Below are positions 1,188-61,479 of a stretch of 64,000 nucleotides of DNA, piece after piece. The notes beneath the pieces are model-generated. The model was not told where the DNA came from. It did not search any database and was given only the letters and a program-made list of their open reading frames with translations. Origin of the DNA: Chloroflexi bacterium RBG_13_51_36 (GTDB taxonomy: Bacteria > Chloroflexota > Dehalococcoidia > GIF9 > AB-539-J10); assembly GCA_001796515.1 (NCBI GenBank), contig MGMS01000010.1, forward strand, positions 82,209-146,208, given 5' to 3'. Positions within the stretch are counted from its first letter, which is position 1, and each line of letters starts with the position of its first letter. The translations under genes and the position numbers were made by a program.

Positions 1188-1215
1188 TTGAAAACTGGGG
1201 TGATTGCTTTATACT
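1188..1215 (+). promoter_or_regulatory. Predicted sigma-70-type promoter of mutS2
   Basis: TTGAAA and TATACT are separated by 16 nt. Transcription would start near 1222, giving a leader of about 45 nt. A second -10-like TATAGT lies around 1242, closer to the TTG start codon. Confidence 0.5.
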
Positions 1216-1266: not shown

Positions 1267-3654
1267 TTGGGCGACAGGGATCTAGAACTGCTGGAATTTC
1301 ACAAGATAAGGGAGATACTTGCCGGCTTTACTTCGTTTTCCGCCAGTCGAGACCTTGCCCTTGCCCTCGTTCCCCTAACAGATGAAGAGGAAGTCCGCCT
1401 GCGGCTCAAGCAGTCGACTGAGGCGCGCAGGTTGCTGTCGCTCAGTCCCGATACCCATGTCGGCGAAGTCACTGACATACGGGAAATGGTGAAGATGGCG
1501 GCACTGGGCAAGGTTCTGGACCCTAAGTCCCTGCTGGAAATTCAGAAGACACTGAACGCTGCCCACCGACTAAAAAGTCACCTGATAGGCCTATCGCATG
1601 AACTGCCGTTGTTAAGTGGTCTGGCGCGAGGCATCGTGGTACTGGCCCAGCTCGTGAAGGATATCGATGGTTGCTTGAGTCCGACCGGCGATCTGTTGGA
1701 CACGGCCTCACCTAAGCTGGCATCGGTGAGACATCGAATGCGAGTGGTACGCCAGGAGGTGCTCACTCATCTGCAAGCTATAATCGCCTCGCCCCGAGGA
1801 CGGAAAATAGTCCAGGAACCGATTATTACCGAGCGGGAAGGACGGTATGTGATTCCCGTAAAGGTAGAATCTCGCCGGCAGATAAAGGGCATTGTCCATG
1901 ATGTTTCCAATACCGAGGCCACTGTGTTTATCGAGCCCTGGACAACTACGGACACACAGAATGAGCTCCGCGAACTGGTTGCCGAAGAGAAGCAGGAAAT
2001 AGAAAGAATCCTGAGAACACTCAGTGCCGAAGTCGGAGCGTTCCAGAACGAAATTTTCCAGAATATTGAGTTGGTTGCTGAGATTGACCTGGCACTTACC
2101 AAGGCCAGATATGCCAGGGAAGCCAAAGCCACCGAGCCTATTATCGTGGCTGCTGCTAGAAGTGCCAGTGCAGAGGGCAATGAACCGGGTGGAGTGCTCA
2201 GGCTCGTAGAGGCCAGACATCCATTGCTCAAAAAGAAGGCAGTGCCGTTGTCAATTGAGATTGGCCGGCATTTCTCCGCTCTGGTCATTACCGGGCCCAA
2301 TACCGGCGGCAAGACGGTCGCCCTCAAGACGATAGGGCTGCTCAGCCTGATGGCGCAGGCCGGCCTGCCCATTCCGGCTCAGGCAGAAAGCCGCATCCCC
2401 GTTTTTGACGGCGTGTATGCCGACATCGGTGATGAACAGAGCATTGAGCAGACGCTTTCCACTTTCAGCTGGCACATGGGGAACATCGTGCACATCATCA
2501 ACAACGCTACAGCAAAGAGCTTGGTGCTGTTAGATGAATTGGGTACCAATACTGACCCGGGCGAAGGTTCGGCTCTCGGCCGAGCTATATTGCTCCATTT
2601 TTTGTCACAGGGGACGATGACCGTGGCGACCAGTCACTACACTGAACTGAAGGCGCTGGCTCATGCTACCGACGGCATGCAGAACGCGGCCCTGGATGTG
2701 GACCCCGTTTCCCTGGCGCCGACCTATCACCTGACCGTGGGTATCCCGGGTGGCAGCAATGCTCTGGCTACGGCGTCTCGTCTGGGACTGCCCGCGGACA
2801 TTGTCGCCCAGGCGCGGGACATGCTTTCCCAAAGCGCCCAGGAGATTGAGTCTCTGCTCACCCATCTGGTGACGGAACAGAAGAATGTCGAGTCCCTGCG
2901 CAACGACCTGGAAAAAGAACTGAATGAAGCGGAACGGACCAGTACAGACCTGAAAAACAGACTGCGTCAGTTAGAAGAAGAAAGACGAAGAATCATCAAG
3001 CAAACGCGTGACCAGATAGTCCATGAGGCCGCCGAGCTACAGACGAAAATTCGTGAGACAGCAGCGGAATTGCGCAAGGAAAAGTCGCGGGAAAGAATCG
3101 AGCAGGCAAAAAAGACACTGGCCGAGGCACAGGAGCAGTTGAATGTCGGAGTATGGCAGGCCGGACCGGAGGTTGAGACAGATGAAACAGAAACCCAGCC
3201 AGGCCCAATCACCATCGGTGACACCGTCTGGCTGAAAGAGGCTGGCGTGCCGGCAACTCTACTTTCGGTGTTTGAGGAACGCGGGCTGGCCGAAGTCCAG
3301 GCGGGCAAAGTGAAGATGACCCTCAGGCTGGACGGTGTGGAGAAGAGAACGTCACCAGCGGGTGAGGTGAAGACGGGGGGCGCCCTGATAAGGAGGGAGA
3401 TGCGTAAGCCCAGGGTCTGTCTCGAGCTTGACCTGCGAGGAAAGAGGGCTGAGGAGGTCGAGCCATTGCTGGACGGCTATCTTAACGAAGCGTCTTTGAG
3501 TGGCTTGAGCAGGGTTCGCATCATTCATGGTTTCGGGACGGGCACCGTGCGCCAGATCGTCAGGGAGGTTCTGGCGTCTCATCCGTTGGTCACATCTTTC
3601 CAGCCCGGGGAGCAGGGCGAAGGCGGTGACGGCGTTACCATGGTCAGCATGTAG
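1267..3654 (+). CDS. mutS2: MutS2 ATPase/Smr-domain protein
   Basis: 795 aa, close to the usual length of MutS2. The start is TTG, with CAGG about 6 nt upstream. Visible parts: MutS core, Walker A GPNTGGKT (343-350), Walker B LVLLDELG (about 419-426), a long charged coiled-coil stretch (about 520-640), a KOW-like segment around 655-700, and a C-terminal Smr domain (about 719-795) with LDLRG and HGFGTG. MutS2 of Firmicutes suppresses recombination and also recognises collided ribosomes. It lacks the mismatch-binding domain of MutS1. The gene immediately downstream, 34 nt away, encodes a Vms1-like peptidyl-tRNA hydrolase, which favours the ribosome role here. Confidence 0.95.
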   Translation: MGDRDLELLEFHKIREILAGFTSFSASRDLALALVPLTDEEEVRLRLKQSTEARRLLSLSPDTHVGEVTDIREMVKMAALGKVLDPKSLLEIQKTLNAAHRLKSHLIGLSHELPLLSGLARGIVVLAQLVKDIDGCLSPTGDLLDTASPKLASVRHRMRVVRQEVLTHLQAIIASPRGRKIVQEPIITEREGRYVIPVKVESRRQIKGIVHDVSNTEATVFIEPWTTTDTQNELRELVAEEKQEIERILRTLSAEVGAFQNEIFQNIELVAEIDLALTKARYAREAKATEPIIVAAARSASAEGNEPGGVLRLVEARHPLLKKKAVPLSIEIGRHFSALVITGPNTGGKTVALKTIGLLSLMAQAGLPIPAQAESRIPVFDGVYADIGDEQSIEQTLSTFSWHMGNIVHIINNATAKSLVLLDELGTNTDPGEGSALGRAILLHFLSQGTMTVATSHYTELKALAHATDGMQNAALDVDPVSLAPTYHLTVGIPGGSNALATASRLGLPADIVAQARDMLSQSAQEIESLLTHLVTEQKNVESLRNDLEKELNEAERTSTDLKNRLRQLEEERRRIIKQTRDQIVHEAAELQTKIRETAAELRKEKSRERIEQAKKTLAEAQEQLNVGVWQAGPEVETDETETQPGPITIGDTVWLKEAGVPATLLSVFEERGLAEVQAGKVKMTLRLDGVEKRTSPAGEVKTGGALIRREMRKPRVCLELDLRGKRAEEVEPLLDGYLNEASLSGLSRVRIIHGFGTGTVRQIVREVLASHPLVTSFQPGEQGEGGDGVTMVSM

Positions 3655-3688
3655 CCGGATTATTTTGCCAGGCCGGGTGATCTTTATT

Positions 3689-4441
3689 ATGTTTATGTCA
3701 AAAAGATTCTATCTCGACAGAGCAAACGCAATCAGCTTTCTGGGCGAGATGGCTTCGGCTGAAAAGAAAGCAATATCGTTATATGTCCCACAAGGGACGA
3801 CTCAAAACAGGGTTGAGAGTCTGCTGGGGAAGATGTCTCTGGCAAATGCCGTAGCGCCAGACGTGGCTGAGGTTATAGCCAATTCGAGAATGGGAGCGGC
3901 GTTTTTCTGGAGCCCGACACAAACGTATCTAGTCTTGCCCCCGTTCCCAATATCAGAAGAATATATCACCGACGGCCACGATGTTGGGCCGCTGCATTCC
4001 CTTCTCGGCCGTGACTATCTTATTGCTCTTGTTCTTGTCCGGCTGGGAGCCTACAGCGTTGGCGTCTGCCGGGGCACGGAGCTCATAGATAGTAAAACGG
4101 GCACAGGTCTGGTGCACGCCCGCCACAAGAAGGGCGGCTCTTCGCAGGCGCGATTTGCCCGACATCGTGAAAAGCAAATAGAGACATTTCTGACCCGGGT
4201 TTGCGGTCATGTGCGTGAACATATCGAGCCCCATGCCCGGGCGCTCGACTATCTGGTCTACGGTGGAGCCAGGACTACCATACTGTCACTGCGCAGGCGG
4301 TGCCCGTTTCTGAATCAATTTGACGACCGTGTTCTGCGGATGCTGCTGGATATACCGGAGCCACGCCAGGTGGTACTGGAAAAAGCTGTTGGCACAGTTT
4401 GGTCCACCGATATTATCGAATGGTGTGGGGAGGACTCTTAA
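3689..4441 (+). CDS. Vms1/acVLRF1-like peptidyl-tRNA hydrolase (release-factor fold)
   Basis: 250 aa from the ATG at 3689 (GGGTGA about 8 nt upstream). The longer ORF-track start at 3527 would lie inside mutS2 and is rejected; an ATG at 3695 is the alternative. The core has AYSVGVCRG, a short strand, then HKKGGSSQARFARHREKQ (about 146-163) and LDYLVYGGART. This pattern matches the VLRF1 family (KAGGWSQQRFARRR in actinobacterial members), which is related to eRF1 and to the eukaryotic quality-control factor Vms1/ANKZF1. The Gln in GSSQ would be the catalytic residue that cleaves peptidyl-tRNA on stalled large subunits. It is probably co-transcribed with mutS2. Confidence 0.85.
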   Translation: MFMSKRFYLDRANAISFLGEMASAEKKAISLYVPQGTTQNRVESLLGKMSLANAVAPDVAEVIANSRMGAAFFWSPTQTYLVLPPFPISEEYITDGHDVGPLHSLLGRDYLIALVLVRLGAYSVGVCRGTELIDSKTGTGLVHARHKKGGSSQARFARHREKQIETFLTRVCGHVREHIEPHARALDYLVYGGARTTILSLRRRCPFLNQFDDRVLRMLLDIPEPRQVVLEKAVGTVWSTDIIEWCGEDS

Positions 4442-35925: not shown

Positions 35926-37212
35926 ATGAAGAACATAGCGATAATCGTATTAGCTTTGGTGTTGCTGTTGCCGGTGGTGGCCTCTATTCAACTTGCCCAG
36001 CCGGCAGCAGGCGAAGTTCTTCAATCAGATAAAGAACGGATAACTTCACCGGATGTCCTCACTGATGAGCAAGCATTACTGGTTGAAGGAAACAGTGCCT
36101 TCGCCTTCGAGCTTTATCGGGCGCTTAGAGGCAAGGAGGGTAATCTTTTCTACTCTCCCTACAGCATCTCACTGGCACTGGCCATGACCTACGCCGGAGC
36201 CCGTGGTGAAACTGCTCAGCAGATGGCCGATACACTTCAATTTTTGCTGGAGCAGGCGAAGCTGCACCCGGCGTTTAACTGGCTCGATGCCAAACTCGCC
36301 AGCAGGGGCCAAGGTGTTCAAGGCAAGGATGGCGAAGGATTCAGACTGAACGTAGTAAACGCCATCTGGGGGCGGAAGGGGGCTACGTTCTTACCAGCAT
36401 TCCTCGATGCACTGGCCGAGAACTATGGCGCCGGCTTGCGAATACTGGACTTCATAAGGGAAGCGGAGAAGTCCCGCATCATCATTAATGATTGGGTCAG
36501 TAACCAGACGGAAGGTCGCATTGAAGACCTTATCCCGCAGGGCGCGATTGATGCGCTAACCCGCCTGGTGCTGACCAATGCTATTTACTTCAATGCCGCC
36601 TGGGCGTACCCTTTCGATGAGGGCCTGACAGCAGACGGCCCGTTCTACCTTCTCGACGGCGGGCAAGTCACAGTGCCGATGATGAGGGAGACGGAGGCAT
36701 TCGGCTACACCGATGGGGAAGGATACCAAGCAGTTGAGCTGCTCTATGATGGTGGTGAACTCTCCATGGTTGCCCTTCTGCCTGAATCCGGCGAGTTCCA
36801 GGCTTTTGAAGAGACTCTTAATGCTCAGCAGGTCAGTGATATCATAGCCGGTCTGCGACTCACGCAAGTCACCCTGACCATGCCCAAATTCGAATTTGAG
36901 TCGGAATTCAGTTTGAACGATGCCCTCAGCGAAATGGGCATGCCGATTGCCTTTTCCGAGGGCGACGCGGATTTCTCCGGAATGACCGGTGAGCGCACGA
37001 CATTCATATCGCACGTCATACACAAGGCGTTCGTGGCCGTGGATGAAGCTGGCACCGAGGCTGCTGCTGCCACCGCAGTGATTATGAGAGACTCAGCGAT
37101 ACTCGAACCCGATGTGGAAGTCATGATAGACCGCCCCTTCATCTTCCTGGTTCGCGACATTGAGACTGGCTCTATTCTCTTTGTCGGGCGCGTTCTCAAT
37201 CCCTCTATCTAG
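35926..37212 (+). CDS. Secreted serpin-type protease inhibitor
   Basis: 428 aa with a signal peptide (MKNIAIIVLALVLLLPVVAS). It has a full serpin fold: NLFYSPYSISLALAMTYAGA, VLTNAIYFNAAWAYPF, HKAFVAVDEAGTEAAAATAV and DRPFIFLVRDIETGSILFVG. The hinge GTEAAAATA is that of inhibitory serpins. The scissile bond should fall in the RDSAIL stretch, which suggests no simple trypsin-type specificity. It lies 58 nt after the propeller gene with its own GGGAGGGG site, and a terminator follows. Confidence 0.93.
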   Translation: MKNIAIIVLALVLLLPVVASIQLAQPAAGEVLQSDKERITSPDVLTDEQALLVEGNSAFAFELYRALRGKEGNLFYSPYSISLALAMTYAGARGETAQQMADTLQFLLEQAKLHPAFNWLDAKLASRGQGVQGKDGEGFRLNVVNAIWGRKGATFLPAFLDALAENYGAGLRILDFIREAEKSRIIINDWVSNQTEGRIEDLIPQGAIDALTRLVLTNAIYFNAAWAYPFDEGLTADGPFYLLDGGQVTVPMMRETEAFGYTDGEGYQAVELLYDGGELSMVALLPESGEFQAFEETLNAQQVSDIIAGLRLTQVTLTMPKFEFESEFSLNDALSEMGMPIAFSEGDADFSGMTGERTTFISHVIHKAFVAVDEAGTEAAAATAVIMRDSAILEPDVEVMIDRPFIFLVRDIETGSILFVGRVLNPSI

Positions 37213-43013: not shown

Positions 43014-44345
43014 TTAGTAGCGTTTAGCTTGCCGCGTAGATTTTACATTGCCCCGGTAATCCGGAGCGGTGATGTTGAATACCAGGTTTATCCTGGGGTC
43101 CACCATTCGTGAACTGATTCGCGGTTCAATCTCTTCTAAAGAGAGACATGTAGTGACCACCATGGGCAGCCGGGCATTATAGCGGTAGTTTATCAAGTGA
43201 TATAGTTTCTCCTGAGCCCAGGGCGTGGCCGATTGCTCCCCGAAGTCATCGAGTATCAGCAGCGGCGTCTCTTTGAGCTTCTCGAAAAATTCGTCATAGG
43301 ATATTTTGCTGTCCGGACTGAATGTCGAACGTAAATGGTCCAAAAGCTCGGGGACAACCACAAATAAGACCGGCTTCCCTTGTGCCCGTTGATAGTTAGC
43401 GATAGCTGCTGCCAGATGGGTCTTCCCACAGCCATTGACACCGTGGAATATCAACCAACCTTCCGGGGAGCGAGCGAATTCCACCGCCAACCTGAAAGCC
43501 TCGTGCAAATTTTGCCGCTGTTCCAGGGGAAGTTCCGTCCTCTTGTGGTCAAAATTGTCAAAGGTCATATTTCGCAATAGCTCCAGCTCTAAGCTGCCTT
43601 GAGGCTCGGAGGGCAATTTTTGCTCAATCGTCCATACCTGGCAAAATTCATTATCAGCAAGATGGCCGCGTAAGCGTTCGTCTATTCTTTCCATAGGTAC
43701 ATCGGTAGTGAGCACTGTGGCCAACTTAATATTGAAGCGATGATGAAGGAGTTGCTCCAGCTTCTCTTTAGCCCAGGCTGTAGCGCTTCCCAGGGTAAGG
43801 TCATCAAGCACTAATAGAGGCACATTCTTCACTTGCTCGAACAGCTCGTCATAAGTAGTGTCGCTGGCAGGACTGAATGCGGAGCGGAGGTGGTCCAGGA
43901 GGTCAGCAGCGGTGATATAGAATGCTGGTTCCCCTAGCTTGAGACGGTGACTGGCGATAGCACAAGCCAGGTGTGTTTTACCAGAGCCGCTGGGACCCAA
44001 AAATACCAGCCAACCCTGAGGACTATCAGCAAAGGCTTTGGCAGCCTGGCAGACCTGAGCAAAGCGCTCTTGGGAAGCGGCATTTGCCCCTTTCCCCTTA
44101 GGAGATAAATTGCCAAAGGTAAGCTGAGACAGGGAACCCAAGTTGCTGTATTTCTCAAGATACTCTGTTTTTTTCTTTCTCAGCTCCCCTTTACTGCATC
44201 GGCAGGGTACCACCCGGCTGAAATCAGCTTTCCCTGAATCTAGAGCAGGGTGAACAAAGCCTGCCCCTTTGCAGACAGGGCAGATTCGACCCGCGCCTTC
44301 TTCTGTTGAGGGAAGGGGAGCGTTATCTTCTGACCATGTGTCCAT
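43014..44345 (-). CDS. Tandem AAA+ DnaC/DnaI-like helicase loader
   Basis: 443 aa from ATG 44345 (AAGGG 5 nt upstream); GTG 44405 of the track would overlap dnaD by 83 bp. A zinc-ribbon-like N-terminus (CPVCKGAGF ... CRC) is followed by two DnaC/IstB-type ATPase domains. Domain 1 has GPSGSGKTH and LLVLDDL, domain 2 GVNGCGKTH and LLILDDF. The two share long stretches (LLDHLRSAFSP and LLDHLRSTFSP), so they came from a duplication. Usual loaders of 250-310 aa have one. It lies in an operon behind dnaB and dnaD and should load DnaB on DNA. Confidence 0.85.
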   Translation of the reverse strand: MDTWSEDNAPLPSTEEGAGRICPVCKGAGFVHPALDSGKADFSRVVPCRCSKGELRKKKTEYLEKYSNLGSLSQLTFGNLSPKGKGANAASQERFAQVCQAAKAFADSPQGWLVFLGPSGSGKTHLACAIASHRLKLGEPAFYITAADLLDHLRSAFSPASDTTYDELFEQVKNVPLLVLDDLTLGSATAWAKEKLEQLLHHRFNIKLATVLTTDVPMERIDERLRGHLADNEFCQVWTIEQKLPSEPQGSLELELLRNMTFDNFDHKRTELPLEQRQNLHEAFRLAVEFARSPEGWLIFHGVNGCGKTHLAAAIANYQRAQGKPVLFVVVPELLDHLRSTFSPDSKISYDEFFEKLKETPLLILDDFGEQSATPWAQEKLYHLINYRYNARLPMVVTTCLSLEEIEPRISSRMVDPRINLVFNITAPDYRGNVKSTRQAKRY

Positions 44346-44961
44346 ATTGGCCCTTGATGTATTTGTCGGGGTCAATCTTTTTAATATTTCTCCTATGTTC
44401 TCCACTGTCTTTACCTTCGCGGGCCCATCTTTCCAGGATGCGGGCGATATATCTCCAGCTGCGTTTATTCAGGGCAACTGCTTCCTTGAAGGCTTCTTCA
44501 ATCCACTGGGGCGGATAAAGCTTCTCGGCTTCCTTAAGTTCCTCAGCAATCATGGGTGTTATCATGCCGATATTCTGCTCGTAGAGAGCGAAGATGTTGA
44601 TGGCCGATGGCTGAAGGCTATCGCCGGCCAGGGAATAGACATCCTCAGGCACTCCATCTATATTTGAGGTCGAGTGTGATAGAGCACCGTGCTCCACAGC
44701 CGAGTTGAGAGCCCGTCGAAGTGTCTCTTCGCTTAACTCAGGTGATACCCGATGCCTTTCAGCTTTCAGTTCCTTGTAGGCAACCCTGACAACATCGGTG
44801 TGAGGGCGGAACGATTTTCTGCGCATAAGATACGACACGTACAACACTACTTTTAGTTCGGCCAGGTCTTGAATCTTAGGCATCACGTGAGTAAAAAACG
44901 AGTCAGGTAAGGAGACAAAACTTGTTTCGCTGTGAGAACTCAACAATTGCCTGTCAGGCAT
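44323..44961 (-). CDS. DnaD-domain replication protein
   Basis: 212 aa from ATG 44961; TTG 44979 is also possible and neither has a strong site. The N-terminal part (FVSLPDSFFTHVMPKIQDLA, then RRALNSAVEHGALSH) is a winged helix. The C-terminal DnaD/DnaB2 domain has YEQNIGMITPMIAEELKEAE and EAFKEAVALNKRSWRYIARI followed by LERWAREGK. In Firmicutes DnaD works with a DnaI-type loader in primosome assembly, which matches the neighbours. It overlaps the loader start by 23 bp. Confidence 0.85.
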   Translation of the reverse strand: MPDRQLLSSHSETSFVSLPDSFFTHVMPKIQDLAELKVVLYVSYLMRRKSFRPHTDVVRVAYKELKAERHRVSPELSEETLRRALNSAVEHGALSHSTSNIDGVPEDVYSLAGDSLQPSAINIFALYEQNIGMITPMIAEELKEAEKLYPPQWIEEAFKEAVALNKRSWRYIARILERWAREGKDSGEHRRNIKKIDPDKYIKGQYGHMVRR

Positions 44962-44997: not shown

Positions 44998-46374
44998 TTA
45001 GGAGGCAGAAACCGGCTCAGTCTCCAGATTATCGAATTTGGTAGTCCTTTCCAGGAAGCGCAGCTTTCTTTGTCCCAAAGGACCGTTGCGGTGCTTAGCT
45101 ACGATAATATCAGCGATGCCGCGAGGATAAGGTTCTGTTTCAATGTCATGGACCTTGCTCCAATCTTCGGGAGAGTAATTCAGATCTTCCCGGTGAATGA
45201 AAATGACCACGTCAGCATCCTGCTCAATGCTACCAGATTCGCGCAGGTCAGAAAGTTGAGGTATATGGGAGGGACGCGCTTCGATGGCCCGACTAAGTTG
45301 CGATAGGGCCAAGACGGGCACATTCAGTTCCCGGGCCAAAGTCTTCAGGGCACGAGTTATGCTACTGAGCTCTTGGACTCGGGTTTCGTTTTTGCCATCG
45401 CCCTGTATCAATTGCAGATAATCGATGATAATCAGGTCAATGCCGCGTTCGAAGTGAAGTCGCCGTGCCTTACTCCTTATATCTAGGACACGAAGTTGAG
45501 GCGAATCATCAACGTAAATCGGTGCCTCGGACAGGATGCCACTCGCTTCCATGATCTTCATCTCATCCCTCTCGCTAAAGCGCCCAAGACGAACCTTTGC
45601 AGAATCGACCCCTGATTCGCTGGCTAGAAGTCTATGTACGACTGACTCTCGGGACATTTCCAAACTGAACAGTGCGATGCAGGCCTTCTGGTTGATAGCA
45701 GCGTTTCTAGCAACATTTAGGGCCAAGCTGGTCTTACCCAGACTAGTCTTGGCGGCCAAAACGACCAGGTCGGTCCTCTGCAATCCTCCCAGGAAATCAT
45801 CTAAAGCCGCAAAACCAGTTAGAATATGAGGTATTTCCCCTGTCCTAAGTGTAGTAGATGGCCCAGCTTTGTCAAAATATTGACCTAGGACATCGCGAAT
45901 CGGAACAAGGCCTCGAAGCCCTTGCCTGGCTCGAACTTTGAACAAGATATCTTCGGCGTCGTTTAGGCTGGCCTCAACATTTGGGCTGGCTTCGTAGCCA
46001 AGGACCTTGATCTGCTCAGCGGCGGCGATTAGCCGCCGCATTACCGCTGTATCGGATACTATTTGAGCATAATATTCAACATGGAGGGATGTCGGCACAT
46101 TGCCTATTAGATGGCTTAAGAAGGCGGCACCACCAACTTGTTCCAGCTTGTCCTGGCGCATCAGCTCATGGGCCGCTGTAATCTGGTTTATGACTTCATT
46201 GCGCTGATAAAGAGAAAAACAAGCCTGGTAAATCGCCCGATTTGTTTCTGAGAAAAAATCCTCGGGCTTGAGAGAAGCAGCAATCTTCAGTATGGCATCA
46301 GGGTCAATGAGCAGAGAGCCAATTACTGCCTCTTCGGCTTCAATATCATGAGGTGGTGACTTTTCCTCGGCCAC
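44998..46374 (-). CDS. dnaB: Replicative DNA helicase
   Basis: 458 aa from a GTG two bases after the rplI stop. N-terminal domain (IEAEEAVIGSLLIDPDAI), linker, then RecA-type motor: TGFAALDDFLGGL, Walker A AKTSLGKTS (208-216; usually ARPSMGKTA), LFSLEMS, LIIIDYLQLI, LALSQLSRAIEAR and DLRESGSIEQDADVV. The linker contains FDKAGPSTTLRTG (167-179), a repeat-derived insert. It unwinds DNA at the fork; the dnaD and loader genes follow in the same operon. Confidence 0.95.
   Translation of the reverse strand: MAEEKSPPHDIEAEEAVIGSLLIDPDAILKIAASLKPEDFFSETNRAIYQACFSLYQRNEVINQITAAHELMRQDKLEQVGGAAFLSHLIGNVPTSLHVEYYAQIVSDTAVMRRLIAAAEQIKVLGYEASPNVEASLNDAEDILFKVRARQGLRGLVPIRDVLGQYFDKAGPSTTLRTGEIPHILTGFAALDDFLGGLQRTDLVVLAAKTSLGKTSLALNVARNAAINQKACIALFSLEMSRESVVHRLLASESGVDSAKVRLGRFSERDEMKIMEASGILSEAPIYVDDSPQLRVLDIRSKARRLHFERGIDLIIIDYLQLIQGDGKNETRVQELSSITRALKTLARELNVPVLALSQLSRAIEARPSHIPQLSDLRESGSIEQDADVVIFIHREDLNYSPEDWSKVHDIETEPYPRGIADIIVAKHRNGPLGQRKLRFLERTTKFDNLETEPVSAS
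45838..45876 (-). repeat. Repeat-derived insert inside dnaB
   Basis: Encodes FDKAGPSTTLRTG in the DnaB linker. Peptides such as FDKLR and PSTTLRTG are translations of a palindromic repeat that recurs inside Chloroflexota genes. The codons here have diverged from the usual repeat DNA, so the insertion is old. Confidence 0.55.
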
Positions 46375-51574: not shown

Positions 51575-52974
51575 AATCCCGGGAACACCGAGGCAGTTTG
51601 CTATTTTCGCGACCATTGTTGTGGCAGTTGCCTTCCTGTGTTACCGGGGGCTAGGAGACATCCACCAAGCTATAGCAGCTACCGTTTGTATAGCTTTGGT
51701 TGTGGGGACTTTAATGTTTTGGAGATTCAGAGTGGCCATAGCTTTCATAGGAATCTCGGTTTTGCTTCTGACAGGGACGATGAACTTGGAGCATGCCATA
51801 GAATTCATGAATTTGGATGTTATTGTTTTTCTGATAGGCATGGCAGTGATAGTTGCACTTCTCCGAGACACTGGCTTCTTCCGTTGGCTGGGCATCAAGA
51901 TAATCAAGCTTGCTAGATATTAGCCCAGGAACGTAATGATTTCTCTTCTGGTTCTTTCCGCGGTTATGGCTGCCTGTGTGGACGAAGTAACTTCCATACT
52001 TTTTATGACAGCACTCGTATTTGAGCTTTGCGAACGTTATAAGGTTGACCCCGTAAACTACGTAATATCGGTTGTGCTGGCCACAAATATTGGGAGTTCC
52101 TGGACCGTTCTGGGGAACCCCATTGGAATATTGCTGGCCCTCAGAGCTGGACTGAGCTTTGAAGATTTCATGCGGTGGTCTTTTCCAGTCAGTTTGATTG
52201 GCCTTATTTGCGTCATGGTCATAATTTTGGTGTGGCAACGTGGTGACCTCAAAGCACTCAGGACCAGGATTAATGCCCAGATGGAAAGCGGCATTGCCAA
52301 TTTGGATGAATGGGCTGAAGTAAAAGATAGAGCCTTTTTCAAATGGGGAATTGTCCTGTTTCTGGGGGTGGTGGTTTTTCTGGCTTTGCACTACCGCCTT
52401 GAGCTGCTATTTGGTCTGGAAAGGGACACGCTGCTTGTTGCTATTTCCATCACGGGCGCTGGGATCGCCATGTTCTGGAAAAGAGACAAGGCTGAGGAAT
52501 ATTTGGAGAGAGGTGTCTCGCGGGGGACACTGGTATTCTTCATGTTCTTATTTTCTGTGGCAGGCAGCCTTGCCTATACCGGTGTTACCGGCAAGATTGC
52601 AGGTGTTGCCACGGGGCTAACGGCTAGCCCGGTACTACTTCACTATAATTATAGCCTTGGGGGCTGCCTTCGGCTCAGCGGCGCTGGATAACGTGGTTCT
52701 GGTAGCCGCACTCATCCCCGTAGTTCAGGCTTTGGGAGCGGCTGGGGTTAATAACTTTCCAATGTGGTGGGCATTGCTTCAGGGAGCGTGTTACGGCGGC
52801 AACATCACCATGGTCGGCTCGACAGCCAATATCGTGGCTCTGGGCATGTTGGAAAAGCGCACAGGTTATCATATGACATTCCGTAAGTGGATTCTAGTTG
52901 GCTTAGTTGGTGGTCTCTTGCCCCTGTTTGTTGCCCAAGTACTGTTACTTGTTCAACTGCCTCTTATGCCTTGA
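51549..52974 (+). pseudogene. Broken ArsB/NhaD-type (SLC13-like) ion transporter gene
   Basis: Three ORF pieces make one family member. Piece 1 (51549) ends at an in-frame TAG at 51921-51923, after IIKLARY. Piece 2 resumes in the same frame (NVMISLLVLSAVMAACVDEV). Near 52621-52645 the frame changes by one, and piece 3 continues in another frame (TIIIALGAAFGSAALDNVVL). The joined product has the expected order, including ATNIGSSWTVLGNPIGILLA and GACYGGNITMVGSTANIVAL. Either the gene is decaying or there are sequence errors. TAG serves as an ordinary stop in other genes here. Confidence 0.8.
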
Positions 52975-53273: not shown

Positions 53274-54422
53274 GTGGAAGTGCTAAGTCCTTACAAAGAA
53301 GCTACAGATGTAATACTCGAGGCCGGCGGCGAACCTCTTAAGCTATGTTACCAGTGTGGTCTTTGTACCGGCATTTGTCCCTGGAATTTGGTTCGAAGTT
53401 TTCTCGTTCGTCGCATCATGCACGAAGCTCAGCTTGGGGCGGTTGATTTTGGGGGTGAGGATGTCTGGACTTGTGTCACATGTCGGGCCTGTGTCCAGCG
53501 CTGCCCCCGAGGCGTAGAGATAATAGATGTTATGAGAGCTATACGCCGAGCTGTAGCCAGCATGGGTATCGGCGTTGTCCCTGACGCCCTGAGAATCTCG
53601 GCTAAGAACATCGCTGGCGTAGGTAATCCACTTGGTGAGGTACCAGAGAAGCGAAATGACTGGGCTAAAGACCTTAAGGTGAAACAATTTGCCTCGGGCA
53701 CCGAAATACTTTATTTCCCGTGCTGTATCCCTTCATACGACCCTGATGTGAAAACGGTAGCTCGATCTGTCGCCACGATCTTCAATAAGCTTAAGATTGA
53801 TTATGGCATCATAGGCACTGAAGCAAAATGCTGTGGCGAATCAATTAGAAAGGCCGGGCAGGAAGATACGTTCCAAAGTCTGGCTCAAAACAACATCAAT
53901 CTCTTTACCAGTAGTGGTGTCAAGACTGTGGTAGTTTCTTCACCGCATTGCTACCACACTTTTAAGAATGAATATCCCGAGCTTGGAGGCAAATTCGAAG
54001 TAATTCATATCACTCAGTATCTAGCTTCACTTATCGACGAAGGGAAATTGAAGCTCTCTAAGAAGATAAACAAAAAGGTAGTCTATTCCGACCCCTGCTA
54101 TTTGGGGAGACACAACGATATCTACGATGAGCCTAGGAAGATTCTGCAGAGCATTCCCGGCGTGGAATTGATTGAATTTCCTGATGCTCGCGAGAATGGC
54201 CTCTGTTGTGGAGGTGGGGGCGGCAGAATCTGGATGGATACTCCGAAAGGAGAGAGGTTCTCCGATATAAGGGTAGAACAGGCTGCTGCGAAAGGAGCCG
54301 ATATCGTAGCTATAGCTTGTCCCTACTGCTTCCTCAACTATAGAGACAGTGTACTCTCCATGGGCAAGGCAGAGACTATGCAGGTTAAAGATATCGTTGA
54401 ACTCGTTGCTGAAGCAATATGA
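53274..54422 (+). CDS. HdrD-like (fused HdrC-HdrB) heterodisulfide reductase subunit
   Basis: 382 aa from GTG 53274 (GAGGT 11 nt upstream). Two 4Fe-4S motifs at the N-terminus (CYQCGLCTGICP, CVTCRACVQRCP; about 25-77) are the HdrC part. Two CCG domains follow: CC ... CCGES ... HC, and DPCYLGRHNDIYD ... LCCGGGGG ... CPYC, the latter typical for the noncubane 4Fe-4S clusters of HdrB. In methanogens such a subunit reduces CoM-S-S-CoB. Bacteria use related units for other disulfides or carriers. First gene of the run; hdrA follows 15 nt later. Confidence 0.9.
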   Translation: MEVLSPYKEATDVILEAGGEPLKLCYQCGLCTGICPWNLVRSFLVRRIMHEAQLGAVDFGGEDVWTCVTCRACVQRCPRGVEIIDVMRAIRRAVASMGIGVVPDALRISAKNIAGVGNPLGEVPEKRNDWAKDLKVKQFASGTEILYFPCCIPSYDPDVKTVARSVATIFNKLKIDYGIIGTEAKCCGESIRKAGQEDTFQSLAQNNINLFTSSGVKTVVVSSPHCYHTFKNEYPELGGKFEVIHITQYLASLIDEGKLKLSKKINKKVVYSDPCYLGRHNDIYDEPRKILQSIPGVELIEFPDARENGLCCGGGGGRIWMDTPKGERFSDIRVEQAAAKGADIVAIACPYCFLNYRDSVLSMGKAETMQVKDIVELVAEAI

Positions 54423-54437
54423 TAACGGAGTAATGAG

Positions 54438-56420
54438 ATGGAGGAGATAAGGATTGGCGTTTACATCTGCCACTGCGGAGTGAATATTGCAGCAACAGTC
54501 GACGTGGCCGAGGTAGCAAGATATGCTGGGACATTGCCCGGAGTAGTGCTATCCCGTGATTATGTATTCATGTGTTCCGACCCAGGGCAAGACCTTATTA
54601 GAAAAGACATTAAGGAATATAACCTCAATCGTGTTATAGTCTCTTCTTGCTCCCCGAGGTTGCATGAGCTCACCTTCCGCCGGGTTTGTGAGAGCGCCGG
54701 TTTGAATCGTTATCTATTCGAAATGGTAAATATAAGGGAGCAATGCTCTTGGACCAATGAAGACAAAGAGGCAAATACAGAGAAAGCGAAGGCTTTGGTT
54801 GACGCTGCGGTGAGGCGTGTTCATTACCAGGAGCCATTGGAAATTAAGGATGCCCCCTATAATCCCAATACTCTAATTGTAGGCGGAGGGATTGCCGGAA
54901 TTCAAGCTGCTTTGGAAATTGCCAACTCTGAGCATAAAGTCTATTTGGTAGAAAGGGAGCCCTCAATCGGCGGGCATATGATTCAGCTTGACAAGACCTT
55001 CCCTACTTTGGATTGTTCTCAATGCATTCTCACTCCAAAGATGAGTGAGGTAGGCTCACACCCCTATATTGAACTGTTAACCTATAGTGAGGTGGAGGAG
55101 GTTTCAGGGTACGTGGGGAATTTCAAGGCAAAAATAAGGAAGAAGGCAAGACATGTGGATGTAAGCAAATGTACTGGCTGTGCTGTATGCATGCAAAAAT
55201 GCCCTTATAAGACAGATAGTGAATTTGAGCTAGGCTTAGCCAAGAGAAAAGCTGCTTATATTCCTTTTCCCCAGGCTGTGCCCAACGTTGCCACTGTTGA
55301 CCCCAATATCTGTATTTATATAAAGTCGGAGGGAAAGAAATGCGGAGCTTGTATAAAATCCTGCGAGGCAGGTGCAATAACTGCAGAAACACTTCTTCAT
55401 CAGACCGACGAGATAATCGAGGTTGAGGTAGGTTCAATAATCCTGGCTACTGGTTTCACCACCATGGATCCGAAACTCATTCCCCAATACGGCTACGGTA
55501 AATACGACAATGTCATAACTGGGCTTGAATTTGAGAGGATAGTGAGCCCTACAGGGCCTACGGGAGGGAAAATCCAACTTAAAGATGGCAAAGAGCCAGA
55601 GAGCGTGGCCATAGTCCATTGTGTCGGCAGCCGAGATAAGAATTACCACGAGTATTGCTCCCGTATTTGCTGCATGTATGCCTTGAAACAGGCAAATTAC
55701 ATCAAAGAAGAGCTACCAGATGCGGATGTCTACCAGCTATACATAGACATGCGCTGTTTTGGAGATGGATATGAGGAATTTTATAACCGCCTTTCAAGTG
55801 CAGGAGTCAACTTTGTTCGTGGAAAGGTAGCTCAAGTCACTGATCAGGCTATAAATGATGAGGAAGCCGGAAAACTTATTGTGGTTGCTGAGGATACTCT
55901 TTTAGGACGCATGCTCCGTATTCCGGTAGACATGGTTATTTTGTGTAATGCCGTGGAGCCTCAAGCCGATGCTGGAGAAGTGGCAAAACGTTTTACCATA
56001 AATCGAAAGGCGACGGGTTTCTTCCTGGAGAGGCATCCCAAGCTTGATCCGGTAGCTACACCTACTGAAGGGACTTTTGTCGCTGGTTGTTGCCAGAGTC
56101 CCAAAGACATCCCGGATACAGTAGCCCAGGCTTCAGCAGCGGCAGCAAGGGTTTTGTCACTGATAAGCAAAGGCAGAATTACACTGGAGGCCGCCGTTTC
56201 GGTAATTGACGAGGAGAAGTGTAGCGGCTGCCGGATCTGTAATCTTCTCTGCCCTTATGGTGCTATTTCTTTCATCGAGGATGAAAAGAAATCCCGAATT
56301 AACGAGGCTTTGTGCAAGGGTTGTGGCACCTGCGGTGCTGCTTGCCCTTCAGGAGCTATTACCGCACGTCACTTCACTAACGAGCAAATTCTAGCTCAGG
56401 TGGAAGCCTTAGTCAGCTAG
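54438..56420 (+). CDS. hdrA: HdrA-like electron-bifurcating FAD/Fe-S subunit
   Basis: 660 aa with GGAG before the ATG. N-terminal domain (GVYICHCGVNIAATVDVAEV) with SCSPRLHELTFR, FAD site VGGGIAGIQAALE (about 148-160), HdrA-type Cys cluster at LDCSQCILTPKM, Fe-S motifs CTGCAVCMQKCP (245-256) and CGACIKSC (302-309), and two C-terminal 4Fe-4S motifs (CSGCRICNLLCP, CKGCGTCGAACP). The FAD is the bifurcation site in known Hdr-Mvh complexes. It is in one run with HdrD-like, MvhD, Nfn and hydrogenase genes. Confidence 0.94.
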   Translation: MEEIRIGVYICHCGVNIAATVDVAEVARYAGTLPGVVLSRDYVFMCSDPGQDLIRKDIKEYNLNRVIVSSCSPRLHELTFRRVCESAGLNRYLFEMVNIREQCSWTNEDKEANTEKAKALVDAAVRRVHYQEPLEIKDAPYNPNTLIVGGGIAGIQAALEIANSEHKVYLVEREPSIGGHMIQLDKTFPTLDCSQCILTPKMSEVGSHPYIELLTYSEVEEVSGYVGNFKAKIRKKARHVDVSKCTGCAVCMQKCPYKTDSEFELGLAKRKAAYIPFPQAVPNVATVDPNICIYIKSEGKKCGACIKSCEAGAITAETLLHQTDEIIEVEVGSIILATGFTTMDPKLIPQYGYGKYDNVITGLEFERIVSPTGPTGGKIQLKDGKEPESVAIVHCVGSRDKNYHEYCSRICCMYALKQANYIKEELPDADVYQLYIDMRCFGDGYEEFYNRLSSAGVNFVRGKVAQVTDQAINDEEAGKLIVVAEDTLLGRMLRIPVDMVILCNAVEPQADAGEVAKRFTINRKATGFFLERHPKLDPVATPTEGTFVAGCCQSPKDIPDTVAQASAAAARVLSLISKGRITLEAAVSVIDEEKCSGCRICNLLCPYGAISFIEDEKKSRINEALCKGCGTCGAACPSGAITARHFTNEQILAQVEALVS

Positions 56421-56461
56421 AAGGAACCAGAGCAGTCCAATTCGAATTGAGAGGGAACGAG

Positions 56462-57652
56462 GTGCAAACGAAGAATACATTGGCCATAACTTTGCGCGAT
56501 GAGCTATGTTCCCGATGTTCTATCTGTCGTTCAGCGTGTCCTTTTGAAGCTATTTCCCAAATCGAGGACAAGATCGTTGTGGATATTGAAAAGTGCATGG
56601 TATGTGGTATCTGCAGCAGTGCCTGCCCTTCCGGCGTTATCACACCATACTACTATAGCTACAATGCGTTGGTGGAGAAACTGAAGGCAGAAAAGACCCC
56701 GGATACGGTAGATCTTGTGATAGCCTGCCGTGGCAGCACCGACCCTTGGCTTCAATTACCTGACGCCATGGCTGAGCTGGATTTGAAGAGGGCGATCTTG
56801 TTCAGGGTGCCCTGTGTAGGACGTCTATCTCCAATCTTCTATGTGACTGCGCTCTCTATGGGTATTCAGCGGATCGTTGCCATTCAGTGCAAAGAGAATT
56901 TTTGCCGTTTCACGAAGGGTAGTTTAGTGAACCGCGGTCGTCTCGCCATGCTAGGAAGTTTGGTTAGATCCTTAGGTTACCCAAATGGCACTATTACCAT
57001 TATCGAAGGGGCAAAACAAGTAGAATACGACACGGCGAAGTGCGTTGGCTGCGACAAGTGCGTCCATGCTTGCCCCTACGAGGCGATAGAAGCACAGCCG
57101 TTGGCGACCCCCAAGATAAATTACGAAAAATGTACCGGCTGTGGCGCCTGCGTCGTTGTCTGCCCACATCTGGCACTGGAAATACGCGGGTACGAATGCA
57201 TAAATGTGGCAGAGGTAATCAAAGACTATGGCGAACGGATAAAGGAAACGAAGGGAGGAGCACCGGCGATTCTGGTCCTCTGCTGTCAGTGGGCCGAGTT
57301 CGCCAATCTTGACCGTAACGAGAAAGGCTTGATCAGACCCAATGTAGCCCTCTTGGAAATACCTTGCTTCAGCAAGCTTGACCCAATAAATGTCCTTCAG
57401 GCTTTTGCTTGTGGTTTTGACGCTGTACTTGCTTTTGTATGCTCTGATGATGACTGTAAATCCAAGGAGTCAAGGGTGACGACCGAAGATAATATGAAAG
57501 TCCTTACGACTAGCCTGAAGCTGATGGGGCTGGCGAACAGCTTCAAGATCCATAAGAGTTCACCGAGAACCATAGGGGATTTTGATGCTCAGGTTGATTT
57601 GTTCGTGAGTACAGTCTTGCTCCCGGAAAAGAGGATGGGGACGCAGATATGA
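56462..57652 (+). CDS. Double ferredoxin-MvhD fusion protein
   Basis: 396 aa from GTG 56462 (GAGGG 6 nt upstream); TTG 56447 of the track is less likely. Layout: 2x4Fe-4S ferredoxin (CSRCSICRSACP, CMVCGICSSACP), an MvhD-like domain (VIACRGSTDPWLQL ... VPCVGRLSP ... QCKENFCRFTKGS), a second 2x4Fe-4S ferredoxin (CVGCDKCVHACP, CTGCGACVVVCP) and a second MvhD-like domain (CCQWAEFANLDRN ... IPCFSKLDP ... VCSDDDCKSKES). A tandem repeat of this unit is uncommon. It should pass electrons between HdrA, Nfn and the hydrogenase. It overlaps the next gene by 4 nt. Confidence 0.85.
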   Translation: MQTKNTLAITLRDELCSRCSICRSACPFEAISQIEDKIVVDIEKCMVCGICSSACPSGVITPYYYSYNALVEKLKAEKTPDTVDLVIACRGSTDPWLQLPDAMAELDLKRAILFRVPCVGRLSPIFYVTALSMGIQRIVAIQCKENFCRFTKGSLVNRGRLAMLGSLVRSLGYPNGTITIIEGAKQVEYDTAKCVGCDKCVHACPYEAIEAQPLATPKINYEKCTGCGACVVVCPHLALEIRGYECINVAEVIKDYGERIKETKGGAPAILVLCCQWAEFANLDRNEKGLIRPNVALLEIPCFSKLDPINVLQAFACGFDAVLAFVCSDDDCKSKESRVTTEDNMKVLTTSLKLMGLANSFKIHKSSPRTIGDFDAQVDLFVSTVLLPEKRMGTQI

Positions 57653-58506
57653 ACAGAATACTAGTGAAGAAAGAATTGGCTCCCAAGATAAAGCTTATAG
57701 AGTTTGAGAATCGCGATATTGCCTCGAAAGCAAAGCCCGGACAGTTTGTTGTAATACAAATGGGAGAAAAAGGCGAGAGATTTCCCCTTACTATCAGCGG
57801 AATAGACCCGGGCAAGGGTATGGTGAGAGTCATATTTAATGAAGTAGGTAAGAGCTCCAAGAGGCTGGGGGCTTTGGCTGAAGGGGAAGAGATTGGTAAT
57901 GTAGCAGGCCCGCTGGGAAATCCGGCAGAAATTGAGAAATTTGGCACCGTGCTTTGTTTCGGAGGCGGAGTAATGACTGGCCCTATGGCCTACGAGGCGG
58001 CTGCCTTTAAGAAAGCAGGCAACCGAGTAATCACAGTGATTGGAGCCAGGAATAAGGAGCTTCTCATTCTCAAGGACGAGATGAATGCTCTCAGCGACAA
58101 GCTCTACGTTTCCACGGATGATGGCTCAGAGGGGTACAAGGGGCTGGACTTTCTCCGAGACATCTTGGAGGGGGAGAAAGTCGACCGTGTGATTGGCATG
58201 AGTGTGGCGACTGCCACGTTGAGAACACTATGCGAGCTCACCAGACCCTATGGTGTCAAAACGATAGTGTCACTTACCCCCATCATGCTGGACGGCACCG
58301 GGATGTGTGGGGTCTGTCGGGTTGTTGTGGGTGGGCAGACGAAATTCGCCTGTGTCGATGGGCCGGAATTCGATGGTCATCTGGTGGACTGGGATTTGCT
58401 CGAATCGCGGAAGAGAGTCTATTCCCACGAGGAGAGAGTGTCAACCCTCCTTGATGAGCAGGTCGGAAAGGATTGTGCATCCCGCTTCCAGCAAACAAGA
58501 AAGTAG
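57649..58506 (+). CDS. NfnA-like FAD/NAD-binding, 2Fe-2S subunit
   Basis: 285 aa. Ferredoxin-NADP reductase fold: FAD region FPLTISGIDPGKGMVRVIFN, NAD(P) region GTVLCFGGGVMTGP and VIGMSVATATLRTLCELTRP, and the small 2Fe-2S part GMCGVCRV ... FACVDGPEFDGHLV. It is similar to the sulfide dehydrogenase/NfnA subunit, which works with NfnB in transfer between ferredoxin, NADH and NADPH. The ATG overlaps the upstream stop (ATGA) and NfnB starts 3 nt after its stop. Confidence 0.9.
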   Translation: MNRILVKKELAPKIKLIEFENRDIASKAKPGQFVVIQMGEKGERFPLTISGIDPGKGMVRVIFNEVGKSSKRLGALAEGEEIGNVAGPLGNPAEIEKFGTVLCFGGGVMTGPMAYEAAAFKKAGNRVITVIGARNKELLILKDEMNALSDKLYVSTDDGSEGYKGLDFLRDILEGEKVDRVIGMSVATATLRTLCELTRPYGVKTIVSLTPIMLDGTGMCGVCRVVVGGQTKFACVDGPEFDGHLVDWDLLESRKRVYSHEERVSTLLDEQVGKDCASRFQQTRK

Positions 58507-58508
58507 CT

Positions 58509-59918
58509 ATGCCTGAGAAACTAAAGCTAAATTCCATTCCTATGAACAAGCAACCCCCGGAGGTTCGTAGGAGAAATCCTTACGAGGTAGCCCAGGGATA
58601 TACCTATGAACAGGCAGTTGAGGAGGCAAAACGCTGCATTCAGTGTAAGAAGCCAGCGTGTATCCAGGGCTGCCCGGTCGACATAGACATTCCGAGTTTT
58701 GTCAAAGCTTTGGCGGAAGGAGACTTGCCCCAGGCAGCTAAGATTATCTATGGTACCAATACTCTTCCCGCCATATGTGGGCGGGTTTGTCCCCAGGAAA
58801 CACAATGTCAGGAAAACTGTACGTTGGGGAAAAAGGGCGACCCCGTGTTTATAGGTAGGCTGGAGAGGTTCGTTGCTGACTGGGCAAGAGAAAACCCTGA
58901 GGAATCAGGTATATTCAAAATAGCTCTGCCCAAACCTACAGGCAAAAAGGTGGCGATTATCGGCTCAGGGCCAGCCGGGCTTACTTGTGCCTCTGATTTG
59001 GCTAAGGCTGGGCACAAGGTTGTCATATATGAAGCTTTGCACCTCGCTGGAGGTGTAGCTGTCTACGGAATACCAGAATTCAGGCTGCCGAAGAAGATTG
59101 TCCAAGCCGAAATTGACTACTTGGTTAATGTACTCGGTGTGGAACTTAAGCGCAACCAAGTGGTCGGCAGGTCGGCAACCCTTGATGAGTTACTGGCGGA
59201 CGGCTATCACTCCATATTTCTTGGCATTGGCGCTGGAGCACCGATGTTTCTCAACATACCAGGGGAGAACTCGAATATGGTCTATTCGGCAAACGAGTTT
59301 CTCGTCCGGTTGAACCTCATGAAGGCCTACCTCTTCCCGGCATATGATACGCCGGTGAAGGTTGGGAAAAGGGTGGCGGTTGTTGGTGCAGGTAACGTCG
59401 CTATGGATGCAGCTCGGTGGGCTGTGAGAATGGGCGCTGATGAGGTCTATATTGTTTATCGTCGTACCGAAGCTGAGATGCCGGCTAGGATAGAGGAGGT
59501 AGAGAATGCCCGTGAAGAAGGAGTCATCTTCAAAGTGCTGACTCTTCCTGTGCGGGTAATCCCCAGTGCCCACGGCTCAGTGGAGGCGATAGAGTGCGTT
59601 CAGATGGAGCTTGGTGAACCGGATGAGAGTGGTAGGAGACGTCCGATAGTGAAGCCGGGCAGCGAGTTCTGCATGGAGATTGACACGTTGATCCCGGCAC
59701 TGGGGACGCAGCCTAATCCATTAGTGCCCAGACAAACACCTGACCTGAAGACTACCAGTCGCGGTACAGTTGTTGCCGATGAGAAAGGCAAGACTACCAA
59801 GGAGAAAGTGTGGGCCGGTGGAGACATAGTTACCGGTGCTGCTACGGTCATTAGTGCCATGGGGGCGGGTCGGCGAGCAGCTACAGATATCGATGCTCGC
59901 CTCAAAAATCATAGCTGA
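58509..59918 (+). CDS. NfnB-like/GltA-type NADPH oxidoreductase
   Basis: 469 aa from ATG 58509; the track's 58473 start lies in the upstream gene. N-terminal Fe-S region: CIQCKKPACIQGCPVDIDIP and CGRVCPQETQCQENCTLG. FAD motif VAIIGSGPAGLTCASDLAKA, NADPH motif VAVVGAGNVAMDAARWAVRM and GGDIVTGAATVISAMGAGRR. With the preceding gene it makes up an Nfn-type transhydrogenase pair; alone it would be called glutamate synthase small-subunit type. Confidence 0.92.
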   Translation: MPEKLKLNSIPMNKQPPEVRRRNPYEVAQGYTYEQAVEEAKRCIQCKKPACIQGCPVDIDIPSFVKALAEGDLPQAAKIIYGTNTLPAICGRVCPQETQCQENCTLGKKGDPVFIGRLERFVADWARENPEESGIFKIALPKPTGKKVAIIGSGPAGLTCASDLAKAGHKVVIYEALHLAGGVAVYGIPEFRLPKKIVQAEIDYLVNVLGVELKRNQVVGRSATLDELLADGYHSIFLGIGAGAPMFLNIPGENSNMVYSANEFLVRLNLMKAYLFPAYDTPVKVGKRVAVVGAGNVAMDAARWAVRMGADEVYIVYRRTEAEMPARIEEVENAREEGVIFKVLTLPVRVIPSAHGSVEAIECVQMELGEPDESGRRRPIVKPGSEFCMEIDTLIPALGTQPNPLVPRQTPDLKTTSRGTVVADEKGKTTKEKVWAGGDIVTGAATVISAMGAGRRAATDIDARLKNHS

Positions 59919-59944
59919 CTTGGATATTTGGAGAGTTGGTTTTT

Positions 59945-59991
59945 CTTGCCAGACGTGCTATCATTACAGGCCGTGTCATCGGGCTGGCAAG
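59945..59991 (+). other. Inverted repeat between the nfnB-like and mvhD genes
   Basis: CTTGCCAG and CTGGCAAG, 8 bp, with a 31-nt loop and no T run. It might be an mRNA-processing or stabilising hairpin between the Nfn and hydrogenase halves of the operon. Confidence 0.35.
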
Positions 59992-60083
59992 CAAGCGCGT
60001 ATGAAAACTGTCCTTTTGTTCAATTTGTACTCCACGAAAAAGAGCGAAACAGACCTTTCATGGGTAATTCGTTAGGAGGATAG

Positions 60084-60527
60084 ATGGACAACTTTGAACC
60101 AAAGATAGTAGCCTTTTGCTGTAACTGGTGCTCTTATGCTGGTGCCGACCTGGCTGGCACTTCCAGAATACAGTATTCTCCCAATATAAGAGTAATCAGA
60201 GTGATGTGTAGCGGCAGAGTGAACCCCCTGTTTGTGATTAAGGCGCTCAGCATTGGTGCTGACGGCGTGTTGGTTCTCGGTTGCCATCCCGGCGATTGCC
60301 ACTATATTGAGGGAAATTACAAGACGATGCGCCGTATCCCGCTGCTGAAGAAGATGTTGAAGCAGCTTGGGATAGAAGAGGAAAGGGTCCGGCTGGAGTG
60401 GGTTTCGGCGTCAGAAGGAGCGAAATTTGCTGAGGTGACCGATGGTTTCACGGAATCCGTAAGGAAACTTGGGCCAAGTTCGTTAGGCCATTCGAAACAG
60501 GGTTCTAAGGAGGCAAAGCATGGCTAA
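60084..60527 (+). CDS. mvhD: Hydrogenase delta (MvhD) iron-sulfur subunit
   Basis: 147 aa with TAGGAGG before the ATG. Typical Mvh[61 protein letters not shown]. Its 2Fe-2S cluster passes electrons from MvhAG to HdrA. It overlaps mvhG by 8 bp. Confidence 0.95.
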
Positions 60528-61479
60528 ACTCAAGATAGCGCTTTATTGGGCGGCCAGTTGTGGGGGATGTGAGATTGCGACTCTAGCTATACACGAAAAG
60601 ATACTGAAGCTAGCCGAGGTCGCAGACATCGTTTTCTGGCCGGTAGGCATGGATTTCAAGTATGCTGACGTAGAGAAGATGGCTGATAAAAGTGTGGATG
60701 TCTGCCTTTTCAACGGAGCTATTAGGAATGAAGAAAATGAACACATGGCCAAGCTACTGCGAGCCAAATCTAAGATAATGATAGCCTATGGCTCTTGTGC
60801 TCACGAAGGCTGTATTCCCGGGCTGTCCAATTTCTACAACCGACAACTGACGTTCGATCGGGTCTACATTGAAACGCCGTCGACTGAGAATCCTAGGAAG
60901 ATTTTCCCTCAGACGAAAGTCAAAGTACCTGAGGGCGAGCTCGATATTCCTGAGTTCTATGACACGGTTAAGACTCTAGCCCAGACCGTAGACGTCGATT
61001 ACTTCGTCCCCGGTTGTCCCCCGGAAGAGAGGACTACTTGGCTTGCCCTTGAAGCTTTGATTTCAGGTAAGCTACCGCCGAAAGGGACCGTCATAAGTCA
61101 CGCGGTAAAAGCTGTTTGCGACGAGTGTCCCCGCAAGAAAGAGGAAAAGAAAATCAAGAAATTCTATCGACCTTACGAAAAAATGCCTGAGCCAGAAAGG
61201 TGTCTGCTGGAGCAGGGATTCTTGTGCTACGGTGTGGCTACTCGCGGTGGTTGTGGTGCTCTCTGCCCTCAAGCTAATATGCCATGCACCGGCTGTTACG
61301 GACCGGTGGAAGGGGTAATTGACCAGGGAGCTCATTTTCTGAGTGCTCTTTCGTCTATCATTGACTCCAACGATCCCGAGGAGATTCAAAAAATAATCGA
61401 CGATATTCCTGACCCGGCAGGCACTCTCTACCGTTACAGTCTGCCAGATTCGCTACTTAGGAGGGCACGGATAAAATGA
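60520..61479 (+). CDS. mvhG: [NiFe] hydrogenase small subunit (MvhG type)
   Basis: 319 aa. Proximal-cluster Cys in [14 protein letters not shown], then [11 protein letters not shown] and VPGCPPEE. The C-terminal Cys-rich part ([20 protein letters not shown], then [15 protein letters not shown]) binds the other clusters. No twin-arginine signal, so it is cytoplasmic, as expected for group 3c. Overlaps mvhD and mvhA. Confidence 0.95.

Follow-up and report, generated by a model that had tools for sequence, protein, structure and literature searches.

MutS2 was long regarded as an anti-recombination protein. In Bacillus subtilis, the only species for which this has been demonstrated, MutS2 splits collided ribosomes, and the same study left open how the chain exits from the tRNA after splitting (PMC10897456). 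MutS2 is found in 97% of the genomes that have RqcH, so the co-occurrence of the two is normal (PMC11633108). No dedicated factor has been identified for the release of the nascent chain from 50S-peptidyl-tRNA in bacterial RQC, and in B. subtilis Pth can end RQC (PMC11317155). Among the relatives of eukaryotic Vms1, acVLRF-1 was described by Burroughs and Aravind, who presented bacterial VLRF-1 as a standalone protein, independent of other RQC components (PMC6514570). Both families are already known, and a search of mostly open-access literature returned no earlier report of a MutS2-VLRF1 pairing. We know of no acVLRF1 with known biochemistry. Here we describe a mutS2-VLRF1 gene pair in the window, the 64,000-nt stretch of Chloroflexi bacterium RBG_13_51_36 that was analysed. 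Four features appear to be new, no paper on them having been found: the conserved tie to mutS2, the confinement of this tie to a single VLRF1 clade, the absence of RqcH from the setting and the dispensability of a motif glutamine.

The mutS2-VLRF1 locus

The source assembly comprises 1.93 Mb in 57 contigs and is ~91% complete; among named genomes, Dehalococcoidia and Chloroflexota MAGs are closest to it. Each of the two genes is present as a single copy at the thresholds used. An earlier note, made from the sequence, had placed here a MutS2 with Smr and KOW-like parts and, 34 nt downstream, a VLRF1-family gene whose product carries a sequence motif; layout, domains and motif are all borne out, and the fold search described below keeps the second protein in the eRF1/VLRF1 group (Table 1). 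A consensus scan places a promoter match ~50 nt upstream of mutS2, and a scan of the + strand of the intergenic gap found no terminator-like site.

Table 1. Coordinates of the gene pair and of the SmpB-tmRNA locus (window positions, or genome:contig:position)
Feature	Position	Strand	Details
Sigma-70-like promoter match TTGAAA-16-TATACT	1188..1215	+	consensus scan only, 10/12 matches, weak
mutS2 (rqcU), 795 aa	1267..3654	+	start TTG 1267, stop TAG 3652-3654
Intergenic gap, 34 nt	3655..3688	+	sequence
VLRF1 (acVLRF1 family), 250 aa	3689..4441	+	start ATG 3689 (alternative ATG 3695), stop TAA 4439-4441
Catalytic-loop motif KKGGSSQARFARHR	4127..4168	+	VLRF1 residues 147-160; G149, G150, S152, Q153, R155
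SmpB	G000:C16:46037-46462		source genome
tmRNA, full-length	G000:C16:46499-46835		source genome, adjoins SmpB

The first gene encodes a MutS2/RqcU protein, with a full-length match to TIGR01069 (803 bits, cut-off 400) and the Pfam domains MutS_V, Smr and MSSS/SH3 (KOW-like). The Walker A motif GPNTGGKT (residues 343-350) lies in the MutS core and ATPase, the KOW-like domain spans residues 650-689, and the C-terminal Smr domain carries LDLRG (721-725) and HGFGTG (754-759). Walker A is kept in 82 of 82 VLRF1-linked MutS2 proteins.

The second gene encodes an acVLRF1 protein. Its Pfam matches are of the aeRF1 type only, led by PF18859 (108.4 bits, cut-off 27.1), which also matches all 33 clade members, and followed by baeRF family 10 as second best (54 bits) and eRF1 domain 2 (30 bits); NF041024, 'acVLRF1 family peptidyl-tRNA hydrolase', scores 125, exactly its cut-off. 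A short N-terminal domain is followed by an eRF1 domain-2-like catalytic domain. The AlphaFold model, built with 33 relatives in the alignment, has a pLDDT of 90.8 and a pTM of 0.85, and Foldseek against the PDB returned eRF1/aRF1 first, then Balon, Pelota/Dom34 and Vms1 (6r84, 6r87, 6r86, 5whg). Whole-chain TM-scores are only ~0.35-0.45, which we attribute to differences in domain orientation and number; with 8hku, a shorter aRF1 chain, 126 columns align at 3.3 A. The VLRF1 profile aligns to archaeal aRF1 (3agk) from residue 5 and skips the NIKS-bearing segment, so the stop-codon-binding region is lost as expected of acVLRF1, and the model shows no C-terminal domain. With the NIKS segment absent and the chain ending after its second domain, VLRF1 looks like an aRF1 minus codon reading and the GTPase-binding domain, an anatomy that would suit a factor working without a stop codon.

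Other genes of the window were read from their translations. One ORF (43014-44405) has two tandem DnaC/IstB-like ATPase stretches with two GxxGxGKTHLA motifs and may represent two helicase loaders fused into one; a dnaB-like helicase gene (44998-46374) lies ~600 nt away. The product of 35926-37212 resembles a serpin (protease inhibitor) and begins with a signal-peptide-like stretch, an arsenite/sodium-type permease ORF at 51936-52691 looks truncated and is possibly frameshifted, and a run of heterodisulfide-reductase-like and F420-non-reducing-hydrogenase-like genes occupies 53274-62942.

The catalytic loop and its glutamine

The loop of the window VLRF1 reads GGSSQ (residues 149-153), matching the GGxSQ pattern of acVLRF1, and the glutamine is kept throughout the sampled members of the window's own genus. 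Across 92 distinct proteins of the mutS2-linked clade, the Gln position holds Q in 54, A in 25, S in 12 and E in 1, so that Gln is replaced in 38 of 92 (~40%). The tree shows 9 changes at this position, at least 6 of them forced by supported branches, and within one genus two species differ, with GGSSQ in G343 and GGSSA in G381. The rest of the loop is intact: none of the 36 profile-selected clade members departs from G149, G150, S152, R145, R155, F156, R160, K162 or E165, and the loop has the same length in all 36.

A hydrolysis mechanism requiring the Gln side chain can therefore not be general for the module, and the plain label 'peptidyl-tRNA hydrolase' for VLRF1 is weakened. Lost Gln need not equal lost function. 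In yeast Vms1, GG and R288 mutants are fully inactive, while Q295L is strongly impaired (PMC5989216), and in the aligned clade sequences the GG and the loop arginine critical in Vms1 are invariant; moreover, in bacterial release factors the Gln backbone amide can serve in hydrolysis (PMC6742477).

The same observations bear on the chemistry of release. VLRF1 could be an endonuclease that cuts the 3' CCA end of the tRNA and performs no ester hydrolysis, as Vms1/ANKZF1 has been described to do (PMC11317155), and the Gln side chain would then not be needed, in keeping with its dispensability in this clade and with the pattern of the yeast mutants. Backbone-amide hydrolysis would tolerate Gln loss likewise, however, and the acidic residue of nucleases is missing from the RNase H-like core of the aeRF1 superfamily (PMC6514570). 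We regard CCA cutting as possible but somewhat doubtful; it is a version of the release model rather than its competitor.

An unlikely reading is that VLRF1 is a non-catalytic ligand of the A site or the 50S subunit, like Dom34/Pelota or Balon, which aids MutS2 in splitting or holds the split 50S while Pth, or nothing, releases the chain. The 38 Gln replacements would fit such a ligand, as would the fold matches to Balon and Pelota, the second rank of baeRF family 10 and the presence of Pth in the source genome. Against it, the loop length, GG, Ser and Arg are kept in all 36 profile-selected members, whereas baeRF families that lost Gln have a poorly conserved loop of variable length (PMC6514570), and the 250-aa VLRF1 lacks the C-terminal domain of Dom34 and Balon.

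Recurrence of the pair and its rescue setting

acVLRF1 was searched for in 301 phylum and 245 class genomes, and ~10 kb around the matches was fetched. In these samples mutS2 lies directly upstream on the same strand at 32 loci from 15 families, all of them in one Chloroflexota class, Dehalococcoidia. In a tree of 71 VLRF1 proteins, all 32 linked proteins fall into one clade of 36 (support 100/97), and the other acVLRF1 clades of this tree are never beside mutS2. The clade alignment was then used to scan GTDB species genomes, a set that partly overlaps the first sample; this returned 80 loci, all from Chloroflexota, of which 66 are linked, 7 lie at a contig edge and 7 are not linked. After merging and de-duplication, 77 of the 85 assessable proteins among the 92 distinct clade members have mutS2 directly upstream on the same strand. 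The survey of Chloroflexota neighbourhoods thus gives the recurrent linkage on which the earlier note had made its reading depend.

The spacing of the pair is operon-like: relatives often have 0-50 nt between stop and start, and much of the genus to which the window belongs has 34 nt. One pair overlaps by 4 nt, and a few are ~600 nt apart. Order, strand and tight spacing recur in 15 families, which places the pair far beyond chance. Many apparently shared ORF clusters proved to be antisense shadows of mutS2 or VLRF1; once ORFs overlapping the two genes were removed, no other neighbour cluster occurred in more than 2 of the 15 families, and general synteny was rejected as the cause of the linkage. 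Conservation of a pair in a changing neighbourhood usually indicates a functional unit. That the genes are merely co-transcribed or co-inherited, with MutS2 acting in DNA recombination and sharing no pathway with VLRF1, is very unlikely: it would accord with the long-held view of MutS2 and with the clade members that lack an adjoining mutS2, but the linkage survives divergence to ~38-45% protein identity while all other neighbours change, and it joins a ribosome-binding fold to MutS2, a demonstrated ribosome splitter in B. subtilis.

The clade members without an adjoining mutS2 are L047, L056, L060, L107, L134, L174 and L179; L169, also counted as non-linked, follows a same-strand mutS2 at a distance of 1.45 kb. 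In the class sample, 58 of the 69 genomes with acVLRF1 also have mutS2, and 105 of the 163 mutS2 genomes have no acVLRF1, which makes VLRF1 an addition to MutS2 rather than a requirement.

Several acVLRF1 proteins stand apart from the linked clade. A second, unlinked clade (L089, L090, L092, L094-L098) has motifs such as HRKGGRSEKRFARRTEEQ, and most of its genomes have no mutS2 match (G425, G500, G445, G483, G308, G324); G162 and G475 carry both acVLRF1 types. Further unlinked proteins (L054, L057, L065-L068, L074, L077, L078, L080, L093) mostly have a classical-looking GGQS, in contrast to GGSS in the mutS2-linked clade. Weaker phylum matches to PF18859 (E ~1e-14 to 1e-4, mostly in frames of 350-500 aa) probably represent other baeRF-type relatives and were left out of the acVLRF1 count.

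The earlier note had also suggested rescue possibly without RqcH or tmRNA, and only the first half holds. A search by the NFACT-R domain detected RqcH in B. subtilis and the other controls but in none of the 245 class genomes, and the source genome lacks it as well. RqcH occurs in 134 of the 301 phylum genomes, none of them from Dehalococcoidia. Strong acVLRF1 matches occur in 15 genomes of the phylum sample, three of them outside the class, and not one of these is RqcH-positive. Rescue free of tmRNA is rejected, as SmpB and full-length tmRNA lie side by side in the source genome; SmpB is present in 208 of the 245 class genomes. A search of the source genome for ArfB found only two RF-1-domain proteins, both of RF1/RF2 size, and hence no ArfB.

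A proposed release model and its relation to known systems

We consider it probable that the pair is a conserved two-gene rescue unit in which MutS2 splits collided ribosomes and VLRF1 then frees the chain from 50S-peptidyl-tRNA, as an RqcH-free form of bacterial RQC. Collision sensing, splitting and release are modelled on B. subtilis MutS2 (PMC10897456) and yeast Vms1 (PMC5989216). The KOW-like and Smr domains of MutS2 would let it recognise collided ribosomes, while its ATPase would split the stalled ribosome, leaving a 50S subunit with peptidyl-tRNA. VLRF1, as a codon-independent relative of aRF1/eRF1, could then enter the empty A site of the split 50S, perhaps in physical contact with MutS2, and bring its GGxS loop to the peptidyl transferase centre. 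The nascent chain would be detached by ester hydrolysis, or by a cut at the CCA end as reported for Vms1/ANKZF1, and release would take place without RqcH alanine tailing, alongside an intact trans-translation system. Counting against this release model are the missing Gln in many clade members, the non-obligatory presence of VLRF1 beside MutS2, Pth in the genome and the clade members without an adjoining mutS2.

With the gene of a splitting factor joined to that of a Vms1 relative where RqcH is missing from the whole class sample, the conserved pair offers a direct candidate and a test system for chain release; it also suggests that split-and-release can run with neither tailing nor tags. Because Gln has been lost naturally with the rest of the loop intact, the clade offers a means to decide between ester hydrolysis and CCA cleavage, the two debated modes of action of VLRF1/Vms1. 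Only tentatively, and with somewhat less than even confidence, we extend the model to a second, RqcH-free bacterial RQC of splitting and untagged release, in which VLRF1 would be the long-sought dedicated release factor, the Gln side chain would be unneeded, and the reach may go beyond Chloroflexota. This last possibility arises because, in the FCB group, which contains Bacteroidota, mutS2 is found in 1,781 of 1,956 genomes and rqcH in only 404 (PMC11633108), and Bacteroidetes have a bVLRF-1 of their own (PMC6514570).

Compared to known systems, VLRF1 shares with Balon and other baeRF-1 proteins, which enter the ribosomal A site, a bacterial aeRF1 fold. Balon is a larger hibernation factor (~360 aa in PDB entries), whereas the VLRF1 model lacks a third domain and the conserved neighbour of VLRF1 is mutS2 and no hibernation factor. 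With Vms1/ANKZF1 of eukaryotic RQC it shares an eRF1 domain-2-like catalytic domain, a GxxQ-type loop and a presumed action on the split large subunit without a stop codon. It differs in lacking the Zn finger, ankyrin repeats and VIM (250 aa; Pfam) and in having GGSSQ instead of GGSQ, with a Gln that varies across the clade. The window MutS2 is full-length and has the ATPase, KOW-like and Smr domains of B. subtilis MutS2/RqcU; the latter feeds RqcH/RqcP alanine tailing, whereas the source genome and its class are without RqcH and the gene partner is VLRF1. The closest match is the acVLRF1 family (Burroughs and Aravind 2019; PF18859, NF041024), with which the window protein shares the profile match, the GGxSQ motif, the missing stop-codon domain and an origin in Chloroflexi. 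Unlike acVLRF1 as published, many members of this clade are without the Gln by which the motif is said to be defined, and the clade as a whole is tied to mutS2.
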